In this document: positions 6,049 to 39,625 of the stretch, piece by piece
How the letters are laid out: every line of letters starts with the position of its first letter
Numbering within the stretch: the stretch's first letter is position 1
From: Mycolicibacterium crocinum
GTDB taxonomy: Bacteria; Actinomycetota; Actinomycetes; Mycobacteriales; Mycobacteriaceae
Assembly: GCF_022370635.2 (NCBI RefSeq)
Contig: NZ_CP092362.2
Span: 124,001 to 188,000 of the forward strand
Direction: 5' to 3'
Length of the DNA: 64,000 bases
Notes under the pieces: model-generated
Databases searched by the model: none
What the model was told of the DNA's origin: nothing
The model's input: only the letters and a program-made list of their open reading frames with translations
Translations under genes and position numbers: made by a program

Positions 6049-6107
6049 TTGACGGGCCGTGTGACGTGACTTACATTCTCTACAGCGGAGGACACATCTG
6101 TTCAGCA
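6049..6107 (+). promoter_or_regulatory. Promoter and putative operator of the oxygenase operon
   Basis: TTGACG at 6049-6054 and TACATT at 6072-6077 are separated by 17 bases, a good sigma-A type promoter. Immediately downstream, at 6076-6107, is a motif with the core TTCTCTACAGCGGAG, then five bases, then ATCTG and AGCA. The same arrangement occurs at 25770-25800 before the aldehyde dehydrogenase gene. Position just after the -10 suggests a repressor site; the half-site style is reminiscent of IclR-type operators, which is inference only. ATTCT at 6075-6079 and AGAAT at 6107-6111 form an outer inverted pair. Confidence 0.6.
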
Positions 6108-6152
6108 GAATAGAGAGTGAGTGTTGATGGTCTGGTCGAGGAGTTCGGTGTG

Positions 6153-6662
6153 ATGAACGCGGTTGCGGTCGATCGGGATACCCGTGAGGCTGTCGAGGAG
6201 TTCATGTTCCGGGAGGCGGAGCTACTCGATGGGGGGCAGTTCCGGGAATGGTTGGGTCTGCTCGACCCTGACATCCGGTATGTGGTTCCGGTGCGCACCA
6301 CCCGTGAGGATTCCGCGGGTTGGGTGGGTGCGATCGCGCACTGGAACGACGACTACACGGGTTTGGAGATGCGGGTCCTTCGGGGCGAGACGGATTTCTC
6401 GTGGGCCGAGTCACCTCGGTCGCGGACCCGGCACTTCGTGTCCAACATTCGCACGGTTGCCGGACCGGAGGCTGATGAGTTGACCGTGCGCTCGAATCTG
6501 TTGTTCTTTCGCAGCCGCGGAGATAGCGGCCGGTGGGAGTTGCTGTCGGCCGAACGCGTCGACGTGTTGCGCCGGACCGACGATTCGCTGCGGTTGGCTC
6601 GGCGCGAGGTGTTGCTCGATCACTCGACGTTGCCTATCGACAACCTGTCGGTAGTCCTGTAG
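6153..6662 (+). CDS. Aromatic-ring-hydroxylating dioxygenase, beta subunit
   Basis: Small, non-catalytic subunit of a Rieske dioxygenase (SnoaL/NTF2-like fold) that packs with the alpha subunit encoded 60 bases downstream. About 169 residues, the normal family size, with the conserved N-terminal AVEEFMFREAELLDGG, the WLGLLDPDIRYVVPVRTTRE block and a C-terminal RREVLLDHSTLP. ATG 6153 is chosen because GAGGAG lies nine bases before it and the family starts here; GTG 6117 in the same frame is a longer alternative. Beta precedes alpha, the reverse of the second pair at 11.1-12.8 kb. First gene after the promoter at 6.05 kb. Confidence 0.9.
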   Translation: MNAVAVDRDTREAVEEFMFREAELLDGGQFREWLGLLDPDIRYVVPVRTTREDSAGWVGAIAHWNDDYTGLEMRVLRGETDFSWAESPRSRTRHFVSNIRTVAGPEADELTVRSNLLFFRSRGDSGRWELLSAERVDVLRRTDDSLRLARREVLLDHSTLPIDNLSVVL

Positions 6663-6722
6663 GGCCAGCTCCGTTCACCACCTCCGCGTGGATATCGCCG
6701 TTTCCAGAAAGGGTCCAACCAT

Positions 6723-8090
6723 ATGACCACCGAAACAACCGGAACAGCTGACGCGACCGATCCCTACCTGCGGCGCGCGCTGCGCGACGTAGCGGACGGG
6801 CTCAAGGTCGGGCGCTTACCGGCCCGCGTCGTCAGCGATCCCGCGCTACACACGATCGAGATGGAGCGGATCTTCGGGCGCGCCTGGGTGTTTCTCGGAC
6901 ACGAGTCGGAGTTGGCCAAGTCCGGCGACTTCGTCGTGCGGCACATCGGGGCCGATTCGGTGATCGTTTGCCGGGACAACTCCGGCCGCATCCAGGCGCT
7001 GTCCAATTCTTGTCGCCACCGTGGTGCGCTCGTGTGCCGCGCTGAGATGGGAAACACCGCGCACTTCCAATGCCCGTACCACGGCTGGGTGTACAGCAAC
7101 ACCGGAGAGCTCGTCGGCGTGCCGGCGATGAGTGAGGCCTATCCCGGCGGCTTCGACAAGTCGCAGTGGGGATTACGTCACATCCCCCATGTCGACTCGT
7201 ACGCCGGATTCATCTTCGGCAGCGTCGATCCGAAGGCGCCGAGCCTGACCGACTACCTCGGCGACACGACGTTCTACCTCGACCTCATTGCGAAGAAGAC
7301 AGCGGGCGGTCTGGAGGTGATAGGGGCACCGCATCGATGGGTGATGTCAGCGAACTGGAAGACAGCCGCCGACAATTTTGTCGGCGACTCCTACCACACC
7401 CTCTTTGCTCACCGCTCGATGGTCGAGCTAGGCATGGCGCCCGGTGACCCAAACTTCGCGAGCGCACCAGCGGAAATCTCGCTGCAGAACGGCCACGGCG
7501 TCGGCGTACTCGGCTTTCCGCCCACGCTCGCCGATTTTCCCGAGTACGAGGGATACCCCGACGAAGTCGTCGACCAGATGGCGACGTCCTACCCGTCGCC
7601 GGTACACAAGGACCTGATGCGACGCTCATCCTTTATTCACGGCACCGTGTTCCCGAATTTGTCGTTCATCAACGTGACCCTCGCGCAGGACCACATGTCG
7701 CCCCCTACCCCCTTCATCACGTTCCGGGTATGGCATCCGCTCTCCCATGATCGGATGGAGATCCTCTCCTGGTTCCTGGTCGAACGCGATGCTCCGGAAT
7801 GGTTGCGCGATGCGTCCCAGGCGTCCTACGTCAACAACTTCGGCCCAGGTGGGGTTTTCGAACAGGACGACGCCGAGGCATGGAAGGCCATCACCGAATC
7901 TGTCCAGGGCCCGTTCGCCGGTGAAGGCCTGCTGAACTACGAAATGGGCATGGACTTGACTCCGCTCACCGACTGGCCAGGGCCGGGAGAGGCCCTCCCG
8001 AGCGGGTACGCCGAGCAGAATCAGCGGCGGTTTTGGGGGAGATGGCTGGAATACATGGGTCAGCCTCCCGCATTCGGCGGGCGTGCTTGA
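6723..8090 (+). CDS. Aromatic-ring-hydroxylating dioxygenase, alpha subunit (Rieske)
   Basis: Catalytic subunit, 455 residues. The Rieske [2Fe-2S] ligands are complete: Cys97-x-His99 in CRHRG and Cys117-x2-His120 in CPYHGW. The mononuclear iron site is visible as DNFVGDSYHTLFAH with His225 and His230 and the electron-bridging Asp222 between clusters. Length and motifs resemble the phenylpropionate/benzoate/biphenyl group, but the substrate cannot be read from sequence. It follows its beta subunit and overlaps the open frame of the next SDR gene. No ferredoxin or reductase is encoded nearby, so electrons must come from partners elsewhere. Confidence 0.95.
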   Translation: MTTETTGTADATDPYLRRALRDVADGLKVGRLPARVVSDPALHTIEMERIFGRAWVFLGHESELAKSGDFVVRHIGADSVIVCRDNSGRIQALSNSCRHRGALVCRAEMGNTAHFQCPYHGWVYSNTGELVGVPAMSEAYPGGFDKSQWGLRHIPHVDSYAGFIFGSVDPKAPSLTDYLGDTTFYLDLIAKKTAGGLEVIGAPHRWVMSANWKTAADNFVGDSYHTLFAHRSMVELGMAPGDPNFASAPAEISLQNGHGVGVLGFPPTLADFPEYEGYPDEVVDQMATSYPSPVHKDLMRRSSFIHGTVFPNLSFINVTLAQDHMSPPTPFITFRVWHPLSHDRMEILSWFLVERDAPEWLRDASQASYVNNFGPGGVFEQDDAEAWKAITESVQGPFAGEGLLNYEMGMDLTPLTDWPGPGEALPSGYAEQNQRRFWGRWLEYMGQPPAFGGRA

Positions 8091-8145
8091 TGAAGCTTCT
8101 GCCCAGGCTATGCGCGAAGTGCGCCCGTTCACCAATCGGCGCCGC

Positions 8146-8937
8146 GTGAGTGCCGTGAAGGCGGGGGACCGCCGGGTCGCAATTGTCACTGCCGCCGCCG
8201 CGGGAATCGGTAAGGCGATCGCCCTGCGGTGGTGCCGCGAAGGTGGGTGCTGTGTCATGGCCGACACCGACGGCGAGGGCCTCGATGCGGCCGTGCATGA
8301 ATTGGCCGAGTCCGGCGCGGCGGTTTGCGGCGTCGCCGGCGACGTTTGCCTCAGCGATGTTGCAAACAGTGTCGTCGAACGGGCGCTGACCGAGTTCGGG
8401 CGGCTCGACACACTGTTCAACGTCGTCGGCGGGAGCCTGGCTCGCAACGTGGAGGAGATCAGCGAGGAGCAGTGGCGCAGCCAGATCGACATGAACCTCG
8501 GCAGTGTCTTTCAGATGTCCAAACCCGTCATCCCACTCCTGCGCCAGGGTGGCGGCGGGTCGATCGTCAACGTCGCGTCGACGGCCGGGATCCTCGCCGA
8601 GAACAGGTGCTCCGCCTACAGCGCAAGCAAAGGCGGGGTCGTGCTGCTCACGAAGAACATGGCCCTCGACTTCGCCCGCGACAACATCCGCGTGAACGCG
8701 ATCGCCCCCGGGGGCACCCGCACGCCGAGGATCGAACGGTTCCTGGCCGAGCACCCCGAACACGCCTCGATGATGGTGGACCTCTGCGCGATGCAGCGTT
8801 TCGCAGGACCAGACGAGATCGCGGCGCCGGCTGTGTTTCTTGCCTCGCCCGAGGCGTCCTACATCACCGGTGCCGTACTGCCGGTCGACGGAGGCATGAC
8901 CGCCGGCGTCACTTTCCGGGCGTTCGAGGCGGTATGA
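8146..8937 (+). CDS. Short-chain dehydrogenase/reductase, possible dihydrodiol dehydrogenase
   Basis: Classical SDR of about 263 residues. Catalytic Ser is in IVNVASTAG and the catalytic pair is in YSASK; VDGGMTAG closes the fold. The glycine-rich cofactor loop reads TAAAAGIG instead of the usual TGxxxGIG, so the first glycine is replaced by alanine. Position right after a ring dioxygenase suggests oxidation of the cis-diol product, which is inference. The frame is open from GTG 8083, inside the end of the alpha-subunit gene; GTG 8146 is preferred because the SDR fold begins about eight residues later. Part of the same transcription unit. Confidence 0.88.
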   Translation: MSAVKAGDRRVAIVTAAAAGIGKAIALRWCREGGCCVMADTDGEGLDAAVHELAESGAAVCGVAGDVCLSDVANSVVERALTEFGRLDTLFNVVGGSLARNVEEISEEQWRSQIDMNLGSVFQMSKPVIPLLRQGGGGSIVNVASTAGILAENRCSAYSASKGGVVLLTKNMALDFARDNIRVNAIAPGGTRTPRIERFLAEHPEHASMMVDLCAMQRFAGPDEIAAPAVFLASPEASYITGAVLPVDGGMTAGVTFRAFEAV

Positions 8938-8994
8938 GCATGATCCCCAACCGCTGGAATCTACACCGGACCCACGAAAGCACCGCGAGCTGAG

Positions 8995-10020
8995 ATGGAA
9001 GCGATCGTTCTCAACGGCACCAACGACGTCGGTCTGACGTCGGTGCCAGACCCGGCGCCGCAGGACGGTGAGGTCATCATCGAAGTGGCGGCGACAGGGC
9101 TGTGTGGAACTGACCTCCACGAGTATGTCGCGGGGCCCACCTTCTCGCAGCCGCCGGTGGTGCTCGGTCACGAGGTCTCGGGCCGGATCGTGGAGGTCGG
9201 AGCGGGCGTCGACCAATCCCGCATCGGGCAGGGCGCCGCGGTGATCCCGATGGATTTCTGCGGGAGCTGCCACTACTGCCACCGGTCGCTCTACCACTTG
9301 TGCCAGCGCCCAGGATGGATCGGCTTCACCCGAAACGGAGGCCTCGCGAACTACGTCGCAGTGCCCTCTCGGCTCGCAGTCCGAGTGCCGGACGTGGTGG
9401 ACCTCGAGGAGGCGGCGCTGACCGAGCCGACGGCGGTGGCGTTCCACGCGGTGCGGCGAGCGGAACTGCTCCTCGGCGAAACGGTGATGGTCCTCGGTGC
9501 CGGGGCACTCGGGCTCACCGTGATCCAGTGCGCACGCGCGGCCGGAGCTGCGCGAATCTTCGTCACGGAACCAAGCGGCGTGCGGGCCAGCCTGGCGCGC
9601 GACCTCGGCGCCACGTTGGTGCTCGATCCGCATGACCCCGGGACCACCGCGTGCATCCTGGAGGAGACCCGCGGTGTAGGGGTGGACGTGGTCTTCCATG
9701 TGGCGGGCAGCGCGGAGGCGTTCACACAGGGCCTGGACTGCCTCCGCAAACAGGGCCGTTTCATGGAGATGTCGTCGTGGGCCGGCGCGGCCTCGCTCGA
9801 TGTCAACCGCCATCTGCTCAAGGAGATTCAGCTCCGGATGGTTTTCGGTTACGACATGTTCGACGATTTCCCGGCCGTTCTCGCCCTGATCGCCGACGGA
9901 AAACTCGCGCTCGCGCCGCAAATCACCGCTCGAGTCCCGCTGGACCGCGCCGTCAAGGAGGGATTGGGCGGGCTATTGGAGGGCCGGGAGGGTCTGGTCA
10001 AGGTGCTGGTGAAGCCGTGA
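8995..10020 (+). CDS. Zinc-dependent alcohol dehydrogenase (MDR family)
   Basis: A 341-residue medium-chain dehydrogenase of the threonine/butanediol/sorbitol dehydrogenase type. The catalytic zinc region CGTDLHEY and GHEVSG, the structural zinc cysteines in CGSCHYCHRSLYHLC, and the nucleotide-binding loop GAGALGL are all intact. It would oxidise an alcohol made in the oxygenase pathway, or reduce the matching ketone. Its stop overlaps a GTG in the frame of the next gene by the GTGA pattern, so the two are likely co-translated. Confidence 0.92.
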   Translation: MEAIVLNGTNDVGLTSVPDPAPQDGEVIIEVAATGLCGTDLHEYVAGPTFSQPPVVLGHEVSGRIVEVGAGVDQSRIGQGAAVIPMDFCGSCHYCHRSLYHLCQRPGWIGFTRNGGLANYVAVPSRLAVRVPDVVDLEEAALTEPTAVAFHAVRRAELLLGETVMVLGAGALGLTVIQCARAAGAARIFVTEPSGVRASLARDLGATLVLDPHDPGTTACILEETRGVGVDVVFHVAGSAEAFTQGLDCLRKQGRFMEMSSWAGAASLDVNRHLLKEIQLRMVFGYDMFDDFPAVLALIADGKLALAPQITARVPLDRAVKEGLGGLLEGREGLVKVLVKP

Positions 10021-10034
10021 GTGAGGGAGGCTTG

Positions 10035-11120
10035 ATGGTCGTCGCCGCGACAAGCCGCGGTGTATTCACCGTGTCCGGCGACGGCAAGGCCCGGGCCTGG
10101 CCCGAGTTGCCGGGGCAGGTCATGGCCATGGCTGTCCAGGACGAGCGCGTCGCCGTCGCCGTCCACAAGCACGGCGTGTTTCTCGCCACCGTGGGCGCAG
10201 ACCACTGGACTGACCTCGGCGATGGCCTCGCCCACCGCGACGTGCGCGCGCTGGCGTTCGATCCGCACACGCCCAACGCGCTCTACGCCGGAACAGAACC
10301 AGCGCACTTGCTGCGGTGGCAAGACGGGATCTGGGCCGAGTGTGGAAACGTCCTCGGCGTACCCGAAGCGAAAAGGTGGAGCTTCCCCATCCGCCCGGGA
10401 ATCGCGCACGTCCGTACCATCGCCGTGCACCCACTAGAAGCTGACGTCGTCTACGTCGGCATTGAAGTTGGATCCCTCCTGATCACCCGGGACCGGGGAC
10501 AGACGTGGGAGGAGATCGATGGCCTCGGTCACGACATCCACCGCGTGGTCCTGCACCCGGAAGCTCCCGACCGGCTCATCGTCACCACCGGCCAAGACAC
10601 CAAGCCTTACCGCGGCGGCAAGGGCATTTACCGCAGCACCGACCGCGGATCGAGCTGGGTGCAGTCCAACAACGGACTTGGCGAGCGCAACTACACCGAA
10701 GACGCGATCGTGGTGCATCCCGCCGACCCCGACGTGGTGTTCCTCGCCGCGGCCGACGGCATCCCACCGAAGTGGGCTGCAGTGCGCCGGCTGGTGATGG
10801 GCGCGATCAACGGCAACGTCTATTTCTTGTCGCCGTCCAAACTGCGCCGACGCCGCGGCGCCGACGTGGGATTCTTCCGCAGCAACGACGGTGGCGCCTC
10901 CTGGGTACGGCTGAATAGCGAGGACGACCGCGGCCTGTTCGACATGGTCTGGGCGCTGGAAGGCGAGCTCACTGAAGGCGGCGAGCTGCTGCTGTACCAC
11001 GGCACCACGGCGGGTGGGCTTTACGTGTCGGAAGACGAGGGCCACACCTGGAAGTGCCTGGCCGACGGCCTGGGCGCGATCACCCACATCGCGACGCCGA
11101 AGAAGGGAACAGCGCAGTGA
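10035..11120 (+). CDS. Asp-box beta-propeller protein (sialidase/BNR-like), function unknown
   Basis: A 361-residue protein with repeated beta-propeller blades. Four Asp-box motifs are visible: TRDRGQTW, STDRGSSW, SNDGGASW and SEDEGHTW; several blades carry HP-x-DVVYVG-like strands. No signal peptide or membrane segment is seen, so it is predicted to be cytoplasmic. ATG 10035 is chosen because GAGGGAGG lies just upstream; an in-frame GTG at 10017 overlaps the preceding stop. It sits tightly between the alcohol dehydrogenase and a Rieske alpha subunit (stop overlaps the next start), so it belongs to the catabolic operon. It lacks an obvious sialidase active-site signature; a scaffold, assembly or lactonase-like role is possible but unproven. 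Confidence 0.8.
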   Translation: MVVAATSRGVFTVSGDGKARAWPELPGQVMAMAVQDERVAVAVHKHGVFLATVGADHWTDLGDGLAHRDVRALAFDPHTPNALYAGTEPAHLLRWQDGIWAECGNVLGVPEAKRWSFPIRPGIAHVRTIAVHPLEADVVYVGIEVGSLLITRDRGQTWEEIDGLGHDIHRVVLHPEAPDRLIVTTGQDTKPYRGGKGIYRSTDRGSSWVQSNNGLGERNYTEDAIVVHPADPDVVFLAAADGIPPKWAAVRRLVMGAINGNVYFLSPSKLRRRRGADVGFFRSNDGGASWVRLNSEDDRGLFDMVWALEGELTEGGELLLYHGTTAGGLYVSEDEGHTWKCLADGLGAITHIATPKKGTAQ

Positions 11121-12298
11121 AGCTTGGACCGACGATGGAGTTCGACCACATACAGCCGGCGATCCGGAAACGGTTCACCTCTGCCGCGGACATCCCCAAA
11201 GAGGTGTTCAGCGACCCCGACGTCTACCGGGAAGAGCTCACCCGCATCTTCTATGGCCCCTACTGGCATCCGATCGCGCACCGGGCCGAGCTGGCCGAGC
11301 GCAACGCCTTCCGGACGAGATGGCTGGCCGACGTGCCGCTGCTGATGGTGCGGGACGGCGATGACCGCATCCGCGTGTTCGTCAACTCCTGCGCCCATCG
11401 GGGAACGCTACTGGAACAGCGCCGGTGCGGGGTGGCGGAGCGATTCGAGTGTCCGTATCACCGGTGGATCTTCAACAATGACGGCCGTTTCGCCGGCGCG
11501 CCCCGCCGCATGCAGTTTCGCCCGGACTTTCGCGAGGAGGACTACGGCCTCCGGGAGCTGCACGTAGTCGAGGCGTGGGGTTTGATCTTCGTCAGCATGG
11601 CTGCGCAGCCGCCGCCGTTCGACGATTATCTCGGCGATAGCGCGGATCCGTTGCGCGACTGCATGGTCGATGACGGGGACTTGACGTTGCTGGGCTACCA
11701 GACGGTGGTGTTTCAGAGTAATTGGAAAACCTACATCGACAACGATCCCTATCACGCGCCGCTGCTGCACAGCGCGTTCAAACTGCTCAACTGGCAGGGC
11801 GGCAGCGGAAACGTGCTGGTCAGCGAGCCCTATGGGCACATGTCGGTTCTGTACGATGCGCAACCCTACGTGGACAACGGTTTCCTGGCTGACCCGAGTG
11901 TGGTCACGCGGATGGGGGATGACAGCCGAGCCCGCGTGATTGCGTTACGGCCGGTCACTGGGATCGTGCGTCACGTCGACACAATCAACATCCGGTACGC
12001 CCGCCCGCTGGGGGTTGATCGTACCGAGGTGCGATACACGTTCTTCGGCCATGCCAGTGACTCCGAGGACTTCGCACGCCACCGAGTCCGCCAGTCGTCA
12101 AATCTGCTGGGGCCGAGCGGCTTCATCAGTATCGAGGACGCCGCCGTCTACAACCGCGTGCAGGCGACCGCGCGTGACGGCGGCTATCAGCGCTTTGTCG
12201 CCGGGGTCGGCCGACCATTGTCGGAGTCGTCGCAGAACGACGAGGTCGCCAATACCGGCTGGTGGGCGCACTACCAGGAGGTGATGGAGTTTTGCTGA
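11117..12298 (+). CDS. Second Rieske oxygenase, alpha subunit
   Basis: A 393-residue alpha subunit clearly different from the one at 6.7 kb. Rieske ligands are Cys92-x-His94 (SCAHRG) and Cys112-x2-His115, but the second motif is CPYHRW rather than the near-universal CPYHGW. The iron site is in NWKTYIDNDPYHAPLLH, with His213 and His218 and Asp208/Asp210 nearby. GTG 11117 overlaps the stop of the propeller gene by GTGA; ATG 11135 is an alternative start. Its beta subunit follows with a short overlap. It probably performs a second oxygenation in the same pathway, or acts on a related substrate. Confidence 0.93.
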   Translation: MKLGPTMEFDHIQPAIRKRFTSAADIPKEVFSDPDVYREELTRIFYGPYWHPIAHRAELAERNAFRTRWLADVPLLMVRDGDDRIRVFVNSCAHRGTLLEQRRCGVAERFECPYHRWIFNNDGRFAGAPRRMQFRPDFREEDYGLRELHVVEAWGLIFVSMAAQPPPFDDYLGDSADPLRDCMVDDGDLTLLGYQTVVFQSNWKTYIDNDPYHAPLLHSAFKLLNWQGGSGNVLVSEPYGHMSVLYDAQPYVDNGFLADPSVVTRMGDDSRARVIALRPVTGIVRHVDTINIRYARPLGVDRTEVRYTFFGHASDSEDFARHRVRQSSNLLGPSGFISIEDAAVYNRVQATARDGGYQRFVAGVGRPLSESSQNDEVANTGWWAHYQEVMEFC

Positions 12299-12789
12299 CA
12301 TCGAGCGTCGAAGATCGGCGGGCACGTGCCGCGTACCTGGTGGACGAACTGCTGGGAGCCTACGCCCGCGCAGTCGACGATCAAGACTTCACCGCGTGGC
12401 TTGCCCTGTTCGCGACGGAATGTGCCTACGAGGTGCGCGCGATGGAGAACGTCCGTGAGGGGCTGCCGCTGGCGTACATGATGGACGATTGCCGAGAACG
12501 GCTGGCCGACCGCGTGAAGATGATCCAGGAGGTCTGGGCGGGCACGGTCGAACCCTACGACACCCGCCACTTTCAGCAGCGTACGGCGATGCGTGAGCTC
12601 GGCGAAGACCGCTGGGAGGTACGGTCCAACGTCCTCGTCACCTACACCGGCGCCTCCGGCGAGCCGGGGATTCTGGTCAGCGGCTACAGCGAAGACGTCG
12701 TCGTCCTTGACGATGAAACCGCGCTGTTTCAGCAGAAATTCGTGGTGGTGGACAACACTCCGCCGCGCTATCTGGTGTACCCCGTTTGA
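12292..12789 (+). CDS. Second oxygenase, beta subunit (SnoaL-like)
   Basis: About 165 residues, NTF2/SnoaL-like fold of dioxygenase beta subunits: an N-terminal helix RRARAAYLVDELLGAYARAVDDQDFTAW-type segment, YDTRHFQQRTAM, and a C-terminal FQQKFVVVDNTPPRYLVYPV. TTG 12292 is chosen as the start because AGGAGG lies at the right distance before it; this makes the gene overlap the alpha-subunit stop by seven bases, as expected for co-translated subunits. No ATG or GTG start in frame has comparable support. Confidence 0.86.
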   Translation: MLTSSVEDRRARAAYLVDELLGAYARAVDDQDFTAWLALFATECAYEVRAMENVREGLPLAYMMDDCRERLADRVKMIQEVWAGTVEPYDTRHFQQRTAMRELGEDRWEVRSNVLVTYTGASGEPGILVSGYSEDVVVLDDETALFQQKFVVVDNTPPRYLVYPV

Positions 12790-12817
12790 CTCGTCGACCG
12801 AAGGAGTGGATTAGATA

Positions 12818-13216
12818 ATGACTGCCGTTGCGTTGATGTCGCCCGAGTGGGCACGCGCGTACCGCGACCTGTGGAACGACTCGGCCGAGATCCGGCAGGG
12901 TGCCAAAGAATTGAGCATGCTGATCGAATGGCGAGTACAGGACGCCAACGACCAGGTCTCACAGTTGGAGATCACCGATGGTGAGGCCGTCTACGGCGGG
13001 GTGCAGATCGAAGGGCGAAAGCCTGACTTCGTTCTGACTGCAACCGCGAGCGTCTGGCACCGGGTCGCGGACGGCGAGCTCGGCGTAGCGAACGCCATCG
13101 CGACGCGCAAGATCAAATTCGTGGGCCCGGTCAAGCTGGCGATGGCGAACATGGCGGTGCTCGGCGCCGGACTCCGCCTCCTAGGTCAGGTCGACGGACT
13201 CGTCTGGGGAGACTGA
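12818..13216 (+). CDS. SCP2 sterol-carrier-domain protein
   Basis: A 132-residue protein made almost entirely of one SCP2-like domain, which binds hydrophobic ligands such as sterols or acyl-CoA. Typical features are the central VYGGVQIEGRKPDFVLTATA strand pair, a basic IATRKIKFVGPVKLAMANM segment and a hydrophobic C-terminal helix. It has no signal peptide and is cytoplasmic. GAAGGAG precedes the ATG. Position inside the oxygenase operon suggests that it delivers or holds a poorly soluble substrate for the oxygenases; this fits the neighbouring mce importer but is inference. Confidence 0.8.
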   Translation: MTAVALMSPEWARAYRDLWNDSAEIRQGAKELSMLIEWRVQDANDQVSQLEITDGEAVYGGVQIEGRKPDFVLTATASVWHRVADGELGVANAIATRKIKFVGPVKLAMANMAVLGAGLRLLGQVDGLVWGD

Positions 13217-13218
13217 AC

Positions 13219-13737
13219 ATGGCAGCTTCTCCACGGTGGCAGTGCGACCGGGCGGCGGGCGCGTCCGGGGCCATTCAGTTTCACGGGGTGATTACGGATG
13301 AAGATGGTCGACCAGTTCCTAACGTCCTGATCGAGACCTGGCACGCCACGGGGGACGACGACAACGCGGCGACGAAGATCGGACGGCCGCGGTGCGACGG
13401 CCGGAACTACACCCGCCCAAAGAGCGTCATCACCGACCAACAGGGTCGTTACAGCATGAGAATGGTGCCGCCTCGAGCACCCGAGCACGGATCAGCACCG
13501 TTCATAGCGGTCTCAGTAGAAGCCCGGGGGCTTCTCGATCGGCTGATAACCCGCGCCTACCTTCCAGGGTGCCATCTCGCCAAGGACCCCCTGCTCCGCC
13601 GCCTGCCCGCCGAGCGGCGGCAAGCCCTGATTGCCACCCGCGACGACATCGGACTTCGTTTCGACATCACACTGCGGCCAGCACACGGCGTGAGGGTTGA
13701 AACCTTTGTTGAGCCGCAACAGGAAGCTGCGAGGTGA
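13219..13737 (+). CDS. Intradiol ring-cleavage dioxygenase, alpha-subunit-like (orphan)
   Basis: A 172-residue protein with the immunoglobulin-like core of protocatechuate 3,4-dioxygenase: FHGVITDEDGRPVPNVLIETWHA, then DQQGRYSMRMVPP, then a C-terminal RFDITLRP. This resembles the non-catalytic alpha subunit (PcaG type). The iron ligands of the catalytic beta subunit (two Tyr, two His, including a YHxRxxH-like segment) are not seen, and no beta-subunit gene is adjacent. It follows the SCP2 gene by two bases, so it is co-transcribed. It may need a distant partner or may have lost ring-cleavage activity. Confidence 0.78.
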   Translation: MAASPRWQCDRAAGASGAIQFHGVITDEDGRPVPNVLIETWHATGDDDNAATKIGRPRCDGRNYTRPKSVITDQQGRYSMRMVPPRAPEHGSAPFIAVSVEARGLLDRLITRAYLPGCHLAKDPLLRRLPAERRQALIATRDDIGLRFDITLRPAHGVRVETFVEPQQEAAR

Positions 13738-15556: not shown

Positions 15557-15560
15557 CGCG

Positions 15561-16904: not shown

Positions 16905-16961
16905 CCGCCGAACACGCAAATCGTCGGCGCATGCCCGCAATCGTCGGAGGGGAGCACCGCC

Positions 16962-21794: not shown

Positions 21795-23254
21795 TGTATC
21801 TGAGTAAACGAGTCCGGTTGCAGCTGGCCGCCTTTGGGGTGGTGACACTGTTGGCCGGTGGAACCATGGCCTTCTATTACCTCCGGCTGCCGAGCCTGCT
21901 CTTCGGTATCGGCCGCTACCAAGTCACAATGAAGCTGCCGGACGCAGCGAGTCTGTACGACAACGCCAACGTCACGTATCGGGGCACTACGGTGGGTCGG
22001 GTCACCGACGTCCGCCTGACTGACACCGGAGTCGACGCGGTGCTGTCGCTGCAGTCGGACATCAAGATCCCGGCGGACCTCGACGCCCAGGTGCACAGCC
22101 AGACTGCGGTCGGCGAGTTGTTCGTCGAACTCCTACCGCGAAGCGGCGACGGCGCACCGCTGAAGAACGGCGACGTGATACCAGCCGGCCGCACCTCGGT
22201 CCCCCCCGACATCAACGCACTGCTGCGGGCTGTCAACACCGGTATCGAGGCGATCCCGCGCGACAACCTCAAAACGGTGATCGACGAGTCCTATACGGCG
22301 TTCGGTGGCTTGGGCCCCGAGCTCTCACGGCTGACGCGGGGGGCCACAACGCTGGCCATCGATGCGCGCAACAACCTGCCTGCGCTGACCACCCTCATCG
22401 ATCAGTCCAAACCGGTCTTGGACACCCAGACCGAAACCTCCGACTCCATCCACACCTGGGCGGCCAACCTCGCTCAAATCACCAATCAACTACAGCTCCA
22501 GGATGATTCGGTAAAGGGCTTACTGGTCAACGGGCCCCCCGCCGCAGACCAGGTACGTCAGCTGGTCGACCGCGTACAGCCCACCCTGCCCATCCTGCTG
22601 ACCAATCTGGTCAGCCTCGGCCAAGTGGCGCTCACCTATCAACCCAACCTCGAGCAGATCCTGGCCCTGTATCCGATCGAGATCGCCGGCCTCCAGGGTG
22701 CCGCGCTGGCCAACCGAAACACCAAACAGGACTACAAGGGCGTGTTCCTGTCCTTCAACCTGAACCTCAATGTGCCCCCGCCATGCAGAACGGGATACCT
22801 CCCCGCCCAACAGCAACGCGCAATGTCTGAGGTCGATTACCCACCGAAACCGGCCGGTGACTTGTACTGCCGGATACCACAGGATTCCGGCCTCACGAAC
22901 GTTCGCGGCGCCCGCAACCTGCCCTGTGAAACACGACCGGGAAAGCGGGCGCCGACGGTGAAGATGTGCGAAAGCGACGAAAACTACGTACCTCTCAACG
23001 ACGGCGCCAACTGGAAAGGCGACCCGAACGCGACGCTGTCCGGTCAGCCAGTTCCGCAGCCGCCGCCAGGAACGCCGCCGCCCACCTCGGTACCGGTGAC
23101 CGCCCCGATTGCGGTCGCCGAGTACGACCCGAGCACCGGCATTTACATCGGACCGGATGGCAAACAGTACCGGCAAGCGGATCTGGCTCGGAACGCTGCC
23201 GGGCAGCACACCTGGCAGGACATGCTGCTTCCGCCAAAGGACGGTGAACCGTGA
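21794..23254 (+). CDS. mceF: Mce family protein MceF
   Basis: 486 residues, with a membrane anchor (LQLAAFGVVTLLAGGTMAFYY), MCE domain (YQVTMKLPDAASLYDNANVTYRGTTVGRV) and a long helical region. The C-terminal segment is Cys- and Pro-rich (PPPCRTGYLP, PAGDLYCRIPQ, NLPCETRPGKR, YDPSTGIYIGPDGKQY), standard for MceF. Last core subunit; the two mce-associated genes follow with ATGA-type overlaps. Confidence 0.95.
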   Translation: MYLSKRVRLQLAAFGVVTLLAGGTMAFYYLRLPSLLFGIGRYQVTMKLPDAASLYDNANVTYRGTTVGRVTDVRLTDTGVDAVLSLQSDIKIPADLDAQVHSQTAVGELFVELLPRSGDGAPLKNGDVIPAGRTSVPPDINALLRAVNTGIEAIPRDNLKTVIDESYTAFGGLGPELSRLTRGATTLAIDARNNLPALTTLIDQSKPVLDTQTETSDSIHTWAANLAQITNQLQLQDDSVKGLLVNGPPAADQVRQLVDRVQPTLPILLTNLVSLGQVALTYQPNLEQILALYPIEIAGLQGAALANRNTKQDYKGVFLSFNLNLNVPPPCRTGYLPAQQQRAMSEVDYPPKPAGDLYCRIPQDSGLTNVRGARNLPCETRPGKRAPTVKMCESDENYVPLNDGANWKGDPNATLSGQPVPQPPPGTPPPTSVPVTAPIAVAEYDPSTGIYIGPDGKQYRQADLARNAAGQHTWQDMLLPPKDGEP

Positions 23255-23928
23255 CAACGCAAACCACCGGAGATACCGACGAACCCGTCCGCGACGACCA
23301 CACACCGCCCTCGCCTGCCCCTGATGACACCGTCGATGTCGCCCCCGAAAAGGGCGCTGACAGGACGGATGCCAGCGGCGGCGACCCGCCCGAAGGTGTC
23401 AACGACGAACTGTCGCGGGTCGCCACGCGCGCCTGGCGAAGCCCAATGCCGCCGCAGCGACTGGGGCTCGTGATGGGGTTGGTAGCGGTCGTGACGTTGG
23501 CCGCACTGACCAGTTGGCTGGGCTACCGGGCCTACCAAGCGCATCAGGCCTTCGAACAGCGCCAGCTGTTCGTGCAGGTCGGACGTCAAGGCGCACTGAA
23601 TCTGACCACGATCGACTGGCAGCACGCAGACGCCGATGTGAAGCGCATTCTCGACTCAGCCACAGGCAAGTTCTACGACGAGTTCGCCCAGCGGTCACAA
23701 CCATTCATCGATGTGGTCAACAAGGTGAAGTCGAAATCGGAGGGCACCATCACCGAGGCCGGCTTGGAGTCGCAGTCCCGTGACACGGCCCAGGTGCTGG
23801 TCGCTGTCAACGTGAAGACCACTGTCGGCGAGGGGCCAGAGCGCGAACCCCGAACATGGCGAATGCGCGTCACGGTGCAGAAAGTCGGCAACGACGCGAA
23901 GGTCTCTGACGTGGAGTTCGTGGCATGA
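23251..23928 (+). CDS. Mce-associated membrane protein (Mam), first
   Basis: 225 residues. An acidic, disordered N-terminal part of about 70 residues, one membrane helix (LGLVMGLVAVVTLAALTSWLGY), then an NTF2-like extracytoplasmic domain (TTIDWQHADADVKRILDSATGKFYDEF). This architecture is shared by Mce-associated proteins such as OmamA/LucA, which stabilise Mce complexes. Overlaps both neighbours by four bases. Confidence 0.9.
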   Translation: MTTQTTGDTDEPVRDDHTPPSPAPDDTVDVAPEKGADRTDASGGDPPEGVNDELSRVATRAWRSPMPPQRLGLVMGLVAVVTLAALTSWLGYRAYQAHQAFEQRQLFVQVGRQGALNLTTIDWQHADADVKRILDSATGKFYDEFAQRSQPFIDVVNKVKSKSEGTITEAGLESQSRDTAQVLVAVNVKTTVGEGPEREPRTWRMRVTVQKVGNDAKVSDVEFVA

Positions 23929-24509
23929 CGAACTCACCAGGGAAAGTCGAGTGCGACGATCAGGCTGCCGGCGTCGCCCCAGAATGCGAGGACACCCACG
24001 ATGGCGCCACACCAGGCAGACGTCGCGGCAACATCGTGCGCGTGCTCGGATTCTGGGTGTTGCCGGCTGTCGCCCTGCTGTTGGCGCTCGGCGCGGGCTA
24101 CTTCAAATACCAGGAAGCGACCGCCGATGATGCCGACCGCGCTCGGGCGCAAACCGCTCAGATCGCAACCGAAGCGACGGTCGCGATGCTCTCCTACGCA
24201 CCTGACACGGCAACCGCGAAGCTGAAGGCTGCGCGCGAGGGACTGACAGGGCCGTTTCGCGATTCATACACCTCGTTGACTGATGATGTCGTGATTCCTG
24301 GAGCACAGCAGAAACGAATCTCGGCCACCGCCAAGGTGACTGGTGCCGCCTCCGTCTCCGCCAGTGAAAACCATGCCGTAGTGCTGGTGTTCGTCGACCA
24401 AACCACCGTAGTGGGCAATGACGCGCCGACAGATACTGACTCCGTCGTTCGGGTGACCCTCGACAGAATCGGAAACCGTTGGCTGATATCGGGTTTCGAG
24501 CCGATATGA
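23925..24509 (+). CDS. Mce-associated membrane protein (Mam), second
   Basis: 194 residues with the same plan as the preceding gene: hydrophilic N terminus, single membrane helix (VLGFWVLPAVALLLALGAGYF) and an NTF2-like domain ending in RIGNRWLISGFEPI. It probably forms a pair with the first Mam protein beside the Mce complex. A remnant with the same C-terminal signature is found at 36.93 kb. Confidence 0.9.
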   Translation: MTNSPGKVECDDQAAGVAPECEDTHDGATPGRRRGNIVRVLGFWVLPAVALLLALGAGYFKYQEATADDADRARAQTAQIATEATVAMLSYAPDTATAKLKAAREGLTGPFRDSYTSLTDDVVIPGAQQKRISATAKVTGAASVSASENHAVVLVFVDQTTVVGNDAPTDTDSVVRVTLDRIGNRWLISGFEPI

Positions 24510-24570
24510 GCAGTATTCCAGACACGGCCGCGGCTGCCCGCGAGCCGCAGGCAGCGTGTGAGGAGCAGCC

Positions 24571-25713
24571 TTGAGTGCCCGACCCGCGGTGAGACCGTTT
24601 CGCATCGACGTTGCCGATGAAGTTCTCGATGATCTGCGAACGCGTTTGTCACAGACCCGTTGGCCGGAAGCTGAATGCGTAGCGGACTGGAGCCAGGGCA
24701 TCCCGTTGGGTTACACCCGGGAACTGGCCGAATACTGGGCGAGCGGATACGACTGGCGGTCGCGTGAAGCCGCGCTCAACCGATTCGCTCAGTTCATCAC
24801 CGAAATCGATGGCTTGGACATCCATTTCATCCACCAGCGATCCCCGCACCAAGACGCTTTCCCGCTGCTCATCACCCACGGCTGGCCCGGCTCAATCGTC
24901 GAGTTTCACAAAGTGATTGAGCCGCTGACCAATCCGACTGCCCACGGGGGACAGGTGGAGGACGCCTTCCACGTCGTCTGTCCGTCGCTTCCCGGATACG
25001 GCTTCTCCGGCAGGCCCATCCGCCACGGGTGGGGTGTGGACAAGATCGCGCAGGCATGGGAGACGCTCATGCTGCGCCTCGGCTACGCGCGCTACGGCGC
25101 CCAAGGCGGCGATTGGGGCGCAGCCGTCACCACCCAGATGGGCCGCCACCGCGGCCACTGCGCCGCCATCCATCTGAACATGCCGATCGCTTATCCTCCG
25201 GCGGGGGACATCGCCGATTCGTCGGAGGAAGAGCGGGAGGCGCTGGCCGCGTTGACGCACCACCAGCGTTGGGGCACGGGCTATTCCGAGCAGCAGTCCA
25301 CCCGGCCCCAGACCGTCGGCTACGGACTGGCCGATTCGCCGGTCGGCCAGATGGCCTGGATCGTCGAGAAATTCGCAGCGTGGATGGACTGCGACGGCCA
25401 TCCCGAGAACGTGCTCAGCCGCGATGAGCTCCTCGACAACGTCATGATGTACTGGGCTACCAATAGTGGCTCCTCCTCGGCCCGGTTGTACTGGGAGAGC
25501 TTCAAGACCCTGGACGCGACAACTCGTGTGGAATTGCCCACTGGTATTGCTGCCTTCCCCAAGGAGGTCCTGCGCGCACCGCGAAGTTGGTGCGAACCGA
25601 TCTACAACATCACCCATTGGACGACCATGCCGCGCGGCGGGCACTTCGCCGCTCTGGAACAACCGAGGCTCTTCGTCGACGACATCCGCGCATTCTTCGA
25701 ATCCGTGCGGTGA
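24571..25713 (+). CDS. Epoxide hydrolase (alpha/beta-hydrolase, EHN family)
   Basis: 380 residues. The N-terminal EHN domain (PFRIDVADEVLDDLRTRLSQTRWPE) is followed by the alpha/beta core: oxyanion HGWP at residues 103-106, nucleophile Asp181 in GGDWGA, and the catalytic His in RGGHFAALE near residue 359. Opens epoxides to diols; juvenile-hormone epoxide hydrolase-like proteins share this layout. TTG 24571 is preferred because GAGGAG lies five bases before it; GTG 24589 is an alternative. It follows the Mam genes by about 60 bases and is probably the last gene of the mce operon, linking uptake to epoxide metabolism. Confidence 0.92.
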   Translation: MSARPAVRPFRIDVADEVLDDLRTRLSQTRWPEAECVADWSQGIPLGYTRELAEYWASGYDWRSREAALNRFAQFITEIDGLDIHFIHQRSPHQDAFPLLITHGWPGSIVEFHKVIEPLTNPTAHGGQVEDAFHVVCPSLPGYGFSGRPIRHGWGVDKIAQAWETLMLRLGYARYGAQGGDWGAAVTTQMGRHRGHCAAIHLNMPIAYPPAGDIADSSEEEREALAALTHHQRWGTGYSEQQSTRPQTVGYGLADSPVGQMAWIVEKFAAWMDCDGHPENVLSRDELLDNVMMYWATNSGSSSARLYWESFKTLDATTRVELPTGIAAFPKEVLRAPRSWCEPIYNITHWTTMPRGGHFAALEQPRLFVDDIRAFFESVR

Positions 25714-25740
25714 TGCGGCCAGCCGGCAGGCAACGAAGCT

Positions 25741-25800
25741 TTGGGAGCACGCTTTCGATGAGCTAAACTTTCTGTATTGCGGAGATATTATCTGCTAGCA
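25741..25800 (+). promoter_or_regulatory. Promoter and putative operator of the aldehyde dehydrogenase gene
   Basis: TTGGGA at 25741-25746 and TAAACT at 25764-25769 are 17 bases apart. Directly after the -10 is TTCTGTATTGCGGAG, five bases, then ATCTG, CT and AGCA (25770-25800), matching the motif at 6076-6107. The last part contains the perfect palindrome TGCTAGCA. The likeness covers TTCT, TA, GCGGAG, ATCTG and AGCA with nearly identical spacing, so one DNA-binding protein probably controls both sites. Confidence 0.6.
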
Positions 25801-25848
25801 AGAGGATGCCCGCTGACAAGCACGTGTCAACTATCAAGGAGGCGATGA

Positions 25849-27309
25849 GTGGTAGACGACCCACGGAGTGCAGTCATGAGAACGTGGACGCTCCCGCTAG
25901 GTGACGCAACTTTGCAGGGCCAAAGCGTCTACGACGTGGAGGATCCGTGTACCGGCGACGTGCTGACCCAGGTGCCCGACTGCAGCAGTGAGGATGTCGA
26001 CAGGGTGGTGGCGACTGCACATGCCGCTCAACGCGATTGGGCGCTGCGGACGCCTCGCCAGCGCGGCACCGCGCTGCGGGCTTTGGCGACACTCATGCGC
26101 GATCACTCTGAAGAGCTCGCGCTGCTCGACGCAATTGACGGCGGCTTTCCACTGCCTGCGATGCGCGACGACGTCACGTGGGCGGCCGACGTGCTCGAGC
26201 TGATGGCAGACGACGCGCTCGACCTCGGCGGACGGACTATTCCACTCTCGGCGAACCTGCACTACACGCTGCAGCAGCCCTACGGCGTAGTCGCTCGAAT
26301 CGTCCCCTTCAATCATCCCGTCCTATTTGCAGGATCCAAGATCGCCGCTCCGCTGATGGCGGGGAACGCCGTGGTGCTCAAAGCTCCCGATCAAACACCG
26401 TTGTCGGCCATCCGGCTCGCCGAGCTCGCCAGGGAGGTCCTGCCCGAAGGCCTATTCGGGGTGGTAACCGGGCACGGGGCAACTGCCGGCGCCGCGTTGG
26501 TTGCCCATCCACTAGTCCGGCGAATCGGCTTCATCGGCTCCCCGGGCACGGGCCGACATATCCAGCGCTTGGCGGCCGAGCACGGCGTCAAATACGTCAC
26601 GCTGGAACTCGGCGGCAAGAACCCGATGATCGTCATGCCCGACGCCGACCTCGAGGCGGCTGCCAAAAGCGCCGTGGTAGGGATGAACTTCACCACCACC
26701 GCGGGCCAATCATGCGGATCAACAAGCAGACTGCTGCTGCACGAAGCGATCGCTGACGAGGTGATTGATCTGGTCGTCGATCAGGTCGCTGCCATCAAGG
26801 TAGGCGACCCGCTCGTTGACGGCACGGACATGGGACCCGTCATCGACCAAGCGCAATACTCAAAGTCGTTGCGGGCCATCGAGTCAGGACGGGCGGGCGG
26901 CGCCAGCGTACTTACCGGTGGAGGACGCGCGCAGGGTGTTGGTAGCAAAGGCTGGTATGTCGCCCCGACCGTATTGGCTGGAGTGGCACCACAAGCCGAT
27001 GTCGCCCGCGACGAGATCTTCGGGCCCGTTCTTTCGGTGCTGACCGTCCGTGACGAAGCCGAGGCTGTCGAAGTTGCCAACAGCGTCGAGTTCGGGTTGA
27101 CCGCCGCGGTGTGGACCAACGACGTAAGCCAAGCCCACCGCATGGCTGCGGGACTTGATGCCGGCTACGTCTGGATAAACGGCAGTGCACGCCATTACTG
27201 GGGGTTGCCCTTCGGCGGTTGGAAATCGTCAGGTGTTGGATCCGAAGAGTCCACGGAGGAACTGTTGTCCTACACCCAAGTCAAGGCAGTAACCGTCACC
27301 TTGGACTGA
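25849..27309 (+). CDS. Aldehyde dehydrogenase
   Basis: 486 residues, complete. NAD(P)-binding region with PFNHPVLFAGSKIAAPLMAG-type segment, general base Glu253 in LELGGKNP and catalytic Cys289 in GQSCGS, correctly spaced; C-terminal PFGGWKSSGVG. Oxidises an aldehyde from the pathway encoded upstream. GTG 25849 has AAGGAGG seven bases upstream; ATG 25876 is a possible shorter start. It has its own promoter carrying the shared motif. Similar in family to, but clearly different from, the partial enzyme at the start of the window. Confidence 0.94.
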   Translation: MVDDPRSAVMRTWTLPLGDATLQGQSVYDVEDPCTGDVLTQVPDCSSEDVDRVVATAHAAQRDWALRTPRQRGTALRALATLMRDHSEELALLDAIDGGFPLPAMRDDVTWAADVLELMADDALDLGGRTIPLSANLHYTLQQPYGVVARIVPFNHPVLFAGSKIAAPLMAGNAVVLKAPDQTPLSAIRLAELAREVLPEGLFGVVTGHGATAGAALVAHPLVRRIGFIGSPGTGRHIQRLAAEHGVKYVTLELGGKNPMIVMPDADLEAAAKSAVVGMNFTTTAGQSCGSTSRLLLHEAIADEVIDLVVDQVAAIKVGDPLVDGTDMGPVIDQAQYSKSLRAIESGRAGGASVLTGGGRAQGVGSKGWYVAPTVLAGVAPQADVARDEIFGPVLSVLTVRDEAEAVEVANSVEFGLTAAVWTNDVSQAHRMAAGLDAGYVWINGSARHYWGLPFGGWKSSGVGSEESTEELLSYTQVKAVTVTLD

Positions 27310-27333
27310 ACTGCGTCGATGCGCTGGAAGGCG

Positions 27334-27366
27334 TCGACTGCGGACGGTGACCTTTCTCGCAGTCGA
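27334..27366 (+). terminator. Stem-loop after the aldehyde dehydrogenase gene
   Basis: Perfect 9-bp arms TCGACTGCG (27334-27342) and CGCAGTCGA (27358-27366) around a 15-base loop, 25 bases after the stop codon. There is no T-run, which is common for actinobacterial terminators. The rest of the gap to 27607 shows no gene. Confidence 0.45.
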
Positions 27367-27607
27367 AATCCTGTGGGAGAACTGCTATTTGACGTAGGGC
27401 GTCAGTCGGCCGTGCATCGGCGCCCCAGACGATAAGCGACCGATTAGAAAATCGACTCGGGACACGGCATCGCGCCGTTGCGGGTATGTGACACGCGGCT
27501 GTTTCCCCCGGAACCCCTCCGATGCCCGCGGCGGCGGCTATGTCCGGCGTCGGGTCGGGCAGCACGCAATCGACTGGTACACGCCGACTTGCGCTAGCAT
27601 CAGTTGT

Positions 27608-27636
27608 AGTTTCAAAATAGTTGTGTGAATGAAACT
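27608..27636. promoter_or_regulatory. Palindrome over the MFS gene start, possible MarR operator
   Basis: AGTTTCA (27608-27614) and TGAAACT (27630-27636) are perfect 7-bp inverted arms that straddle the GTG start of the transporter gene. A MarR-type regulator is encoded directly behind the transporter, so auto-regulation of a pump/MarR operon is plausible. Spacing of 15 bases is wide for a single MarR dimer, so this remains tentative. Confidence 0.4.
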
Positions 27637-29085
27637 GTTGTCGAACGACTGAGCCGCCGGCACAAGGCCTTCGTCCTGGCGTCCTGCTGCCTGAGCGTGC
27701 TCATTGTGTCGATCGACGTGACCATCGTCAACGTTGCAATCCCGAGCATCCGCGCCGACCTTTCGGCGTCGCCTTCGCAAATGCAGTGGGTCATTGACAT
27801 CTACACCTTGATGGTGGCCTCGCTATTGCTGCTCTCGGGTGCCATGGCCGACCGATTCGGTCGGCGGCGTACGTTGCAGATCGGGTTGACAATCTTTGCG
27901 TCGGCCTCCCTACTGTGCAGCGTGGCTCCCAACGTCGAAACGCTGATCGGCGCCCGCTTCCTGCAGGCGATCGGCGGTTCGATGCTCACTCCTGCTGGGT
28001 TGTCGATCGTCACGCAGGTGTTCACCGGCAGAGTGGAGCGCGCGCGCGTCATCGGCATATGGGGGGGCGTCGTAGGCATCTCGATGGCCTTGGGTCCGAT
28101 CATGGGCGGAATACTTCTCGAGTATGTTGACTGGCGAGCAGTGTTCTGGATCAACGTGCCGATCTGCGCGCTTGCGGTGCTGTTGACCGCGATCTTCGTT
28201 CCTGAATCCAAGTCGGTCACCATGCGCCACGTCGACCTGATCGGCTTGGTCCTGGGCATGGCCTTCCTGTTCGGACTGGTGTTCGTGCTCATCGAAGGGC
28301 CAGGGATGGGCTGGACCGACACCCGCGTCGTCGTTAGCTGTTGCCTCGCAGCGCTGGCCTTCGCGACATTCCTGCGCTACGAGTCACGCCGCCTCGACCC
28401 GTTCGTCGAGCTCCGATTCTTCCGCAGCATCCCGTTTGCTTCGGCGACGGCCATCGCGGTGTGCGCATTCGCTGCATGGGGCGCGTTCCTGTTCATGATG
28501 TCAATCTATTTGCAAGGGGAGCGCGGGCTTTCAGCGGTGAATACCGGGCTGATGTTTCTGCCCGTGGCCGTCGGCGCATTCATCTTCTCGCCCTTGTCTG
28601 GCCGGCTGGTGGGGCGATTTGGTGCCAGACCGTCGCTGATGATCGCCGGCGCATTGATCGTCGCCGCGACTCTCATGTTCGCGCAGATGAGCGACGCTAC
28701 CCCGCAATGGCGAATGCTGGTCGCCTTTGCGGTTTTCGGCGTCGGTACTTCGATGGTGAACGCACCGGTCACAACCGCGGCCGTCAGCGGTATGCCGACC
28801 GACCGCGCCGGTGCGGCGGCGGCTATCACATCCACGAGCCGACAGGTGGGCGTCGCCATCGGTGTGGCCATATGTGGCCCGGTCGCTGGTGCGGCATTGG
28901 GCGACACCAACGTCGATTTCGCGGTCTCCGCCCAGCCCCTATGGCTAGTGTTCGCTGGAGTTGGTGTGCTGATCTTCACGCTCGGTGTCTACTCGACGTC
29001 GAAGCGCGCGCTGCGCTCAGCAGAGCATCTGGCGCCGCTGATCGCAGGAACCGATCCGCGACGGGAGGCTGCCGATGTCGCGTAA
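27625..29085 (+). CDS. MFS drug/solute exporter, DHA2 (14-TMS) family
   Basis: 486 residues with about 14 hydrophobic segments. Conserved motifs are visible: DVTIVNVAIPSI in helix 1, GAMADRFGRRRTLQ in the first cytoplasmic loop, and GPIMGGILLEYVDWRAVFWINVPI, the signature of the EmrB/QacA-like proton-driven exporters. GTG start; the message may be leaderless or short-leadered because the palindrome overlaps the start. Stop overlaps the MarR gene by 11 bases, so both form one unit. It may expel toxic pathway intermediates. Confidence 0.92.
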   Translation: MNETVVERLSRRHKAFVLASCCLSVLIVSIDVTIVNVAIPSIRADLSASPSQMQWVIDIYTLMVASLLLLSGAMADRFGRRRTLQIGLTIFASASLLCSVAPNVETLIGARFLQAIGGSMLTPAGLSIVTQVFTGRVERARVIGIWGGVVGISMALGPIMGGILLEYVDWRAVFWINVPICALAVLLTAIFVPESKSVTMRHVDLIGLVLGMAFLFGLVFVLIEGPGMGWTDTRVVVSCCLAALAFATFLRYESRRLDPFVELRFFRSIPFASATAIAVCAFAAWGAFLFMMSIYLQGERGLSAVNTGLMFLPVAVGAFIFSPLSGRLVGRFGARPSLMIAGALIVAATLMFAQMSDATPQWRMLVAFAVFGVGTSMVNAPVTTAAVSGMPTDRAGAAAAITSTSRQVGVAIGVAICGPVAGAALGDTNVDFAVSAQPLWLVFAGVGVLIFTLGVYSTSKRALRSAEHLAPLIAGTDPRREAADVA

Positions 29086-29429
29086 TCCGGAAGCGGACGA
29101 GGTCTGGCGCGCGATGACCGCACTGGTCACCGACAACCGCGACAGTTGGAGGCGAGCGACCGTCGACCAGACGGGCCTACCTTTGAGTCGCATCCGGATA
29201 CTGCTCCGGCTGTCCCGCGGGTCGATGACCGTCAAAGAGGTCGCGCACGCCGTGACAATCGATCCCCCGGCGGCCACGGTGGCCGTCAACGATCTGGAGG
29301 ACCGCGGCTTAGTCATGCGTCAGACTATTCCCACCAACCGGCGGTACAAAGTGGTATCACTGACCGACGCCGGCTGGTCGATGGTGGCCACCATCAATGC
29401 GGTCGACGACCCGGCTCGGGACTGTGGAT
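29075..29429 (+). pseudogene. MarR-family regulator, 3' end removed by IS256
   Basis: From ATG 29075 the protein has the MarR winged helix: LPLSRIRILLRLSRGSMTVKEVAHAVTIDPPAATVAVNDLEDRGLVMRQ, with the wing RRYKVVSLTDAG. The normal C-terminal dimerisation helix is lost: at 29430 the sequence enters the left inverted repeat of the IS256 element, and translation would run on into IS sequence to 29527. DNA-binding parts remain but dimer formation is probably impaired, which could leave the transporter de-repressed. Confidence 0.85.
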
Positions 29430-39606: not shown

Positions 39607-39625
39607 CCGGAGAAAGCTAGCACCG

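Follow-up and report, generated by a model that had tools for sequence, protein, structure and literature searches.

A mosaic segment of a mycobacterial polycyclic aromatic hydrocarbon degradation region with an embedded mce operon in Mycolicibacterium crocinum

We analyzed a 64,000-nt stretch of the Mycolicibacterium crocinum sequence NZ_CP092362.2 (the window; its genome is labeled G000, and its copy of the locus is referred to as WIN in allele comparisons), focusing on positions 6,049 to 29,429. This segment contains genes for two Rieske-type oxygenases and an mce operon and, as judged by sequence comparison, is the nidBA-to-phdK part of the known region A for polycyclic aromatic hydrocarbon (PAH) degradation in mycobacteria. 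Using Pfam profiles, NCBIfam equivalogs, and best matches in the PDB, we recovered every gene type listed in an earlier sequence-only reading of this DNA, all on the + strand, from 6117 to ~29.4 kb.

In the first Rieske pair, the small-subunit gene nidB (6117 to 6662; Pfam Ring_hydroxyl_B, 9.5e-38) precedes the large-subunit gene nidA (6723 to 8090). A sigma-70-like promoter candidate (TTGACG-17-TACATT; 6049 to 6077) is located 5' of nidB, but one such site compared to the 1.1 expected by chance is not significant alone. The closest PDB match of NidA is the naphthalene dioxygenase 2b1x (546 bits), and NidA was placed in the Nid/Nar clade. The Rieske motif CxH-x17-CxxH and the D-x2-H-x4-H ligand motif are kept in NidA as well as in A2, the alpha subunit of the second pair, and NidA also has the FEQDD ligand motif. 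Downstream of nidA are genes for a short-chain dehydrogenase/reductase (SDR; 8083 to 8937) that is a probable cis-dihydrodiol dehydrogenase, a zinc alcohol dehydrogenase (ADH; 8995 to 10020), a BNR/Sortilin-type beta-propeller (10017 to 11120), A2 (11135 to 12298; the open reading frame opens at 11054, and 11135 is the likelier start), the second Rieske beta subunit B2 (12262 to 12789), an SCP2 sterol-carrier-type lipid-binding protein (12818 to 13216), and a PcaG/intradiol-like protein, here referred to as Intra (13219 to 13737).

A2 shares the Rieske and 2-His-1-Asp motifs and near full-length similarity with the alpha subunits of terephthalate and anthranilate dioxygenases (7vju, 7q04, and AndAc), while every NCBIfam equivalog scores far under its cut-off for A2. 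The closest relatives of A2 found outside region A are encoded on Rhodococcus and Prescottella plasmids (63%) and on pNL1 (44%), and all are uncharacterised. The Arg of the terephthalate site was dropped as a predictor of the A2 substrate because NidA, in alignments read by eye, has this Arg too. Intra had been described as intradiol-like, which holds for its family resemblance but not for the iron ligands: PFIAVS replaces the AHIHFS of PcaH, and the HxH motif is missing in seven of the seven alleles read. We therefore rejected Intra as an intradiol ring-cleavage enzyme. Intra is fast-evolving, with a ratio of nonsynonymous to synonymous substitution rates (dN/dS) of 0.42 to 0.48 (as for all dN/dS values here, read between well-diverged alleles).

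The importer operon comprises two yrbE and six mce genes in one direction, followed by two genes for mce-associated membrane proteins, i.e., yrbEA (13893 to 14702; best PDB match YrbE1A of 8fed), yrbEB (14699 to 15556), mceA (15561 to 16904), mceB (16962 to 17990), mceC (17897 to 19315; the true start is probably further inside), mceD (19312 to 20658), mceE (20655 to 21794), mceF (21794 to 23254), mam1 (23251 to 23928), and mam2 (23925 to 24509). The two permeases contain the EExDA loop as EEVDA at residues 135 and 145, respectively, and MceE has the lipobox LSGC at residue 22. mam1, which has no Pfam match, was assigned from its position, 4-bp overlaps, and length; no part of the operon diverges more than mam2 (64% amino acid identity to most alleles). 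The gene order, the EExDA loops, the MceE lipobox, and the two downstream mam genes are all common to mycobacterial Mce operons, including those for Mce1 (structure 8fed) and Mce4, which is the cholesterol system. The importer had been described as complete, and all eight canonical genes are indeed present; however, the window encodes no ABC ATPase at an E value of 1e-20 or better, while there are 57 matches across the genome. The lack of a linked ATPase is likewise general for mycobacteria, in which no examined mce operon adjoins an ATPase and one Mkl/MceG has been proposed to act in trans (PMC1810536). What sets this operon apart from other Mce operons is that it forms a separate subclass seated within an aromatic-catabolism cluster: yrbEA is 68.7% identical at the amino acid level to that of the nearest other mce operon of the window genome, and mceE is at most 73% identical to its nearest match outside region A. 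The window genome has about ten further mce operons (69 MlaD and 22 YrbE matches), and PAH degraders have previously been noted as richest in mce operons (PMC1810536). Directly upstream of one of the other operons lies a gene for a TNT (tuberculosis necrotizing toxin)-domain protein (L182:7574-9301; G000:C1 at ~22.6 to 24.3 kb).

The mce operon is followed by genes for an EHN family epoxide hydrolase (EH; 24571 to 25713), a phdK-type aldehyde dehydrogenase for the 2-carboxybenzaldehyde step (25849 to 27309), an MFS transporter (27625 to 29085), and a truncated MarR regulator (29075 to 29417). The assignment to region A is based on the published gene table of TJFP1, which lists nidD, nidB, nidA, phdK, and a further nidA/nidB pair (PMC12114333), and which the locus matches in gene lengths (546 bp for nidB and 1368 bp for nidA), gene count, and spacing. 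By the TJFP1 indices, 18 genes lie between nidA and phdK (PMC12114333), precisely as here (those for SDR, ADH, BNR, A2, B2, SCP2, and Intra, then yrbEA, yrbEB, mceA to mceF, mam1, mam2, and the EH gene). Taking an internal start codon of phdK, the TJFP1 distance between the nidA and phdK starts of 19,273 bp (PMC12114333) is equal to that in the relative G153; spacing and gene index together with family also identify phdK in the window. Region A has been described for M. vanbaalenii PYR-1 and M. frederiksbergense LB501T (PMC7585852, PMC10301208), and in these two strains and TJFP1 it has the layout nidD-nidBA-...-phdK-MFS-MarR-pdoA2B2, with which the spacing in the relatives of the window copy agrees. 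Among the named holders of the locus, i.e., M. pyrenivorans, M. frederiksbergense LB501T, M. novocastrense, M. tusciae, M. neglectum, and Mycobacterium sp. PO1 (other genomes are referred to by label), LB501T is a documented anthracene degrader carrying region A. Among the papers that we searched or read, including PMC4342237, PMC7585852, PMC12114333, and PMC10301208, we found none that places an mce operon within region A; subscription works, e.g., on the PYR-1 genome, may show it.

The window copy has the Nid/Nar-type nidBA with an upstream nidD (3' part at 4 to 744, + strand; its start lies left of the window) and the downstream order phdK-MFS-MarR. In contrast to the region A layout, insertion sequences part nidD from nidB, and the right end, i.e., the MarR C terminus and pdoA2B2, is lost. 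In the relatives, the second NidA-like pair PdoA2B2 comes after MarR, and every one of the ten other holders has it; in the window genome, we found no match of the 53% class. An IS256/Mutator-type element (29418 to 30767, + strand) cuts the MarR gene at ~29418, after residue 114 of 159. The loss of pdoA2B2 adjoins this element and is a truncation of the region rather than a sign of a different one. Transposase or integrase genes do flank the segment on both sides, as had been noted (993 to 1949 and 4243 to 5748 on the left; 29460 to 30767, 30727 to 31479, and 33907 to 35301 on the right), but they are not the limits of the catabolic region, which continues for ~35 kb to the left of the window with nidD, genes for a pht phthalate-dioxygenase-like alpha subunit and reductase, and a NidA3-like alpha subunit (57% identity to NidA). 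This leftward continuation, together with the cut MarR gene and the lost pdoA2B2, shows that the mobile DNA is damage to a larger region rather than its border, and we rejected the idea of a discrete island bounded by mobile DNA.

To describe the distribution of the locus, we used 199 genomes of the genus and cut-offs of >80% identity for NidA and >90% for mceE, plus the presence of A2. The same 11 genomes have all three, none has one without the other, and the full gene order is found in 11 of the 12 copies in these genomes. Because the arrangement is conserved across 11 genomes, it is not a product of chance. The comparison of gene order in related mycobacteria, as proposed in the sequence-only reading, showed that the oxygenase genes and mce are physically linked in all mycobacterial copies seen except for two secondary deletions.

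Within this conserved order, the window copy is a mosaic. Compared with G010, the oxygenase block is 99.7% identical, the phdK-MFS part 99.6%, and mce 86.5%, whereas the corresponding values for the comparison with G136 are 81.8%, 84.9%, and 99.7%. The breakpoints map to 14019-14123 in yrbEA and 25278-25320 in the EH gene and delimit an 11.2-kb G136-type tract (14019 to 25320; the mce operon and the 5' part of the EH gene) in a G010-type backbone. With the mce data, the oxygenase clade is rejected (approximately unbiased test, p ~1e-50), as is the mce clade with the oxygenase data (p 2.5e-5); in both tests, the clades were named after the identities were seen. In the wider region of C1 of the window genome, the sequence is G136-type at 89 to 112 kb, G010-type at 112 to 138 kb, G136-type at 138 to 149.3 kb (mce), and G010-type at 149.3 to 153.4 kb; beyond the insertion elements, it is again G136-type. 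Thus, the two halves of the locus in the window genome have different recent parents, which is a new result here. The suggestion that the module was acquired as one block therefore fails on the breakpoints and the tree conflict, for the window genome only, because the mce tract has a different recent source from that of the oxygenase flanks. A host phylogeny of core genes (partial rpoB, gyrB, and recA) groups G000 with G136 and G151 (support 100/99). The parsimonious account starts from a resident region of the G136 type, into which a G010-type donor contributed the oxygenase genes; the mce allele would then be the resident one or have been restored.

Shifts in the mce allele recur in three pairs (WIN/G010, G010/G096, and G151C2/L016), often with breakpoints at yrbEA/B and mam2/EH. 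G096 and G010 are 99.8% identical in the oxygenase genes and 89.1% in mce, and the values for L016 and G151C2 are 99.8% and 89.0%, respectively. Across strains, importer and degradation genes have been exchanged as separate units. It is a real possibility, although we would not call it probable, that such mosaics reflect ordinary homologous recombination in an often-transferred and sometimes plasmid-borne region, with mce being nothing special there. Indeed, exchanges also occur outside mce, as G125 and L014 differ in the ADH-SCP2 block and G096 and L011 in the Intra-mceA part, and most of region A in the window genome switches between the G136 type and the G010 type. The recurrence of mce-allele shifts, often at these breakpoints, argues in the opposite direction, as does the comparison of G010 with G096, where no other 10.4-kb window of the aligned region is as low as the mce block (88.9% identity) and the lowest one clear of mce has 95.8%.

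The mce allele may also follow the host. The nearest-host groups G000/G136/G151, G125/G146, and G010/G153 agree with the mce clusters, but not with the oxygenases, and the host clade G000/G136/G151 has one mce allele type and three oxygenase types. Over all pairs, the rank correlation between mce and core distances is nil (0.007; Pearson, 0.51), and host matching therefore rests on the tips only. Moreover, in each of the two genomes that carry two oxygenase clusters, a single mce operon of the region A type is intact. From these patterns, we infer a fit of allele to host, in which each host would keep one matching importer: the oxygenase genes would move freely, but mce would have to suit the host, and an incoming mce operon would therefore give way to the resident allele, as in the window, or be deleted, as in the G151 plasmid copy and UC10. 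We regard this scenario as speculative and rather unlikely. Two similar alleles might spoil a mixed hexamer of MceA-F, or the importer might have to fit envelope partners of the host; either could impose such a constraint.

The yrbE and mceA-F genes are under purifying selection, with dN/dS values of 0.06 to 0.20 that are close to those of the oxygenase genes, compared with 0.35 to 0.48 for mam1, mam2, and Intra. The gap between Intra and yrbEA is only ~31 bp in G170 and L011, as read from the alignment, and it is therefore likely that the oxygenase half and mce are cotranscribed. We found no conserved palindrome by eye in the intergenic alignment, and with the promoter scan at chance level, a regulator motif common to both halves was discarded. 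Genes for enoyl-CoA hydratase (8/102), FAA hydrolase (5/102), and AMP-ligase (6/102) flank the nearest other mce operons more often than they flank the other mce operons of the window genome (≤1/110, ≤1/110, and 3/110, respectively), and SDR and Rieske genes are also commoner around the former. Because these loci are not independent, this enrichment lends weak support to a catabolic tie of the mce subclass. Two mce operons elsewhere also adjoin Rieske genes, i.e., an alpha/beta pair 30-32% similar to NidAB (L194:2279-18612 in G198) and an alpha subunit gene with 42% (L185 in G121).

The sequence-only reading had proposed an uptake-and-breakdown module for a hydrophobic, probably aromatic or polycyclic compound. 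PAH catabolism is borne out by the Nid/Nar-type alpha subunit, LB501T, and the TJFP1 table, but the self-standing island is not, as the segment lies in the middle of region A. We consider it probable, on the evidence of gene content and linkage, that the segment contains a dedicated Mce importer for PAHs or their metabolites. Judging from family membership and the published pathway, NidAB would convert PAHs to cis-dihydrodiols, SDR and ADH would oxidise these, A2B2 would act on an aromatic intermediate, PhdK would oxidise 2-carboxybenzaldehyde, and the epoxide hydrolase would open arene oxides produced elsewhere. We also infer the substrate and the direction of import: YrbEAB, MceA-F, and both Mam proteins, working with an ATPase whose gene lies elsewhere, would move PAHs or amphipathic metabolites across the envelope toward the enzymes, and SCP2 would be an intracellular carrier. 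The most likely role of the Mce complex would thus be to import PAHs, or metabolites of these, directly.

Several observations weigh against a dedicated importer. PAHs are membrane-permeable, and an active importer may therefore be unnecessary; also, the Mce complex could move lipid instead. The mce genes have been lost by different deletions (~11.5 kb and ~10.1 kb) from the copies on G151 contig C3 (L101/L102) and in the UC10 assembly (L015), both of which retain the oxygenase and epoxide hydrolase genes; each of these genomes has a second cluster with mce genes, yet a single mceE at >90% identity. In a Pseudonocardia metagenome-assembled genome (MAG), nidBA-SDR-ADH-BNR-A2B2-SCP2 is present at 70-85% but is not followed by mce, and the sole MceE relative of this MAG is 38% identical. 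Thus, outside mycobacteria the oxygenases need not be linked to mce, and the operon was either added in mycobacteria or lost in Pseudonocardia. An alphaproteobacterial MAG contig likewise has A2B2-BNR-ADH without mce, and in the stretch shown of the M. rufum plasmid NZ_CP103313.1 (L123), phdK-MarR-pdoA2B2 occurs with IS256 copies nearby and without nidBA or mce.

An alternative is that the mce operon serves in envelope maintenance and, similarly to Ttg2/Mla, remodels membrane lipids for tolerance to hydrophobic toxicants without importing PAHs. The proteobacterial Mla system moves phospholipid, and the clustering of the mce alleles with nearest host relatives suits an envelope role. In Pseudomonas putida, toluene tolerance requires ttg2A, which belongs to an Mce-type transporter (PMC1810536). 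However, the operon is set between catabolic genes with which it is probably cotranscribed, and its subclass is found only in NidA-bearing genomes; we consider the envelope function unlikely. Still more improbable, in our view, is a neutral neighborhood in which mce is present by history and hitchhikes as the region spreads by transfer, with no functional tie to PAH breakdown. The strongly incongruent mce and oxygenase trees, the roughly ten other mce operons, and the loss of mce from second copies are all as expected if the association were neutral, but the linkage has been maintained despite repeated recombination and a nucleotide divergence of 18%, selection is strongly purifying, and in the 199-genome sample neither partner occurs without the other. 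To our knowledge, how hydrophobic pollutants pass the mycobacterial envelope is not settled, and few Mce systems have known substrates. Being under purifying selection and, to date, seen only in NidA-bearing genomes, an mce operon within the PAH region is a direct genetic handle on PAH uptake, and the natural swaps are ready-made allele pairs for addressing what sets Mce specificity and host fit.

Some variation also occurs around the genes between ADH and BNR. In G136 (L115:6294-8069), a gene for an FAD_binding_2 (succinate-dehydrogenase-like) protein that is missing in the window lineage lies between them, and G160 and the Pseudonocardia MAG have a gap of similar size at this position. On the alphaproteobacterial contig (L019:1123-13238), the order BNR-A2-B2-ADH-ALDH, in which ALDH denotes an aldehyde dehydrogenase, is followed by genes that, as read from the sequence, resemble a naphthalene-type upper pathway (VOC, isomerase-like, and aldolase-like). 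In the window, two genes for APH/ecdysteroid-kinase-like phosphotransferases are located at 38557 to 42500, to the right of the mobile elements.

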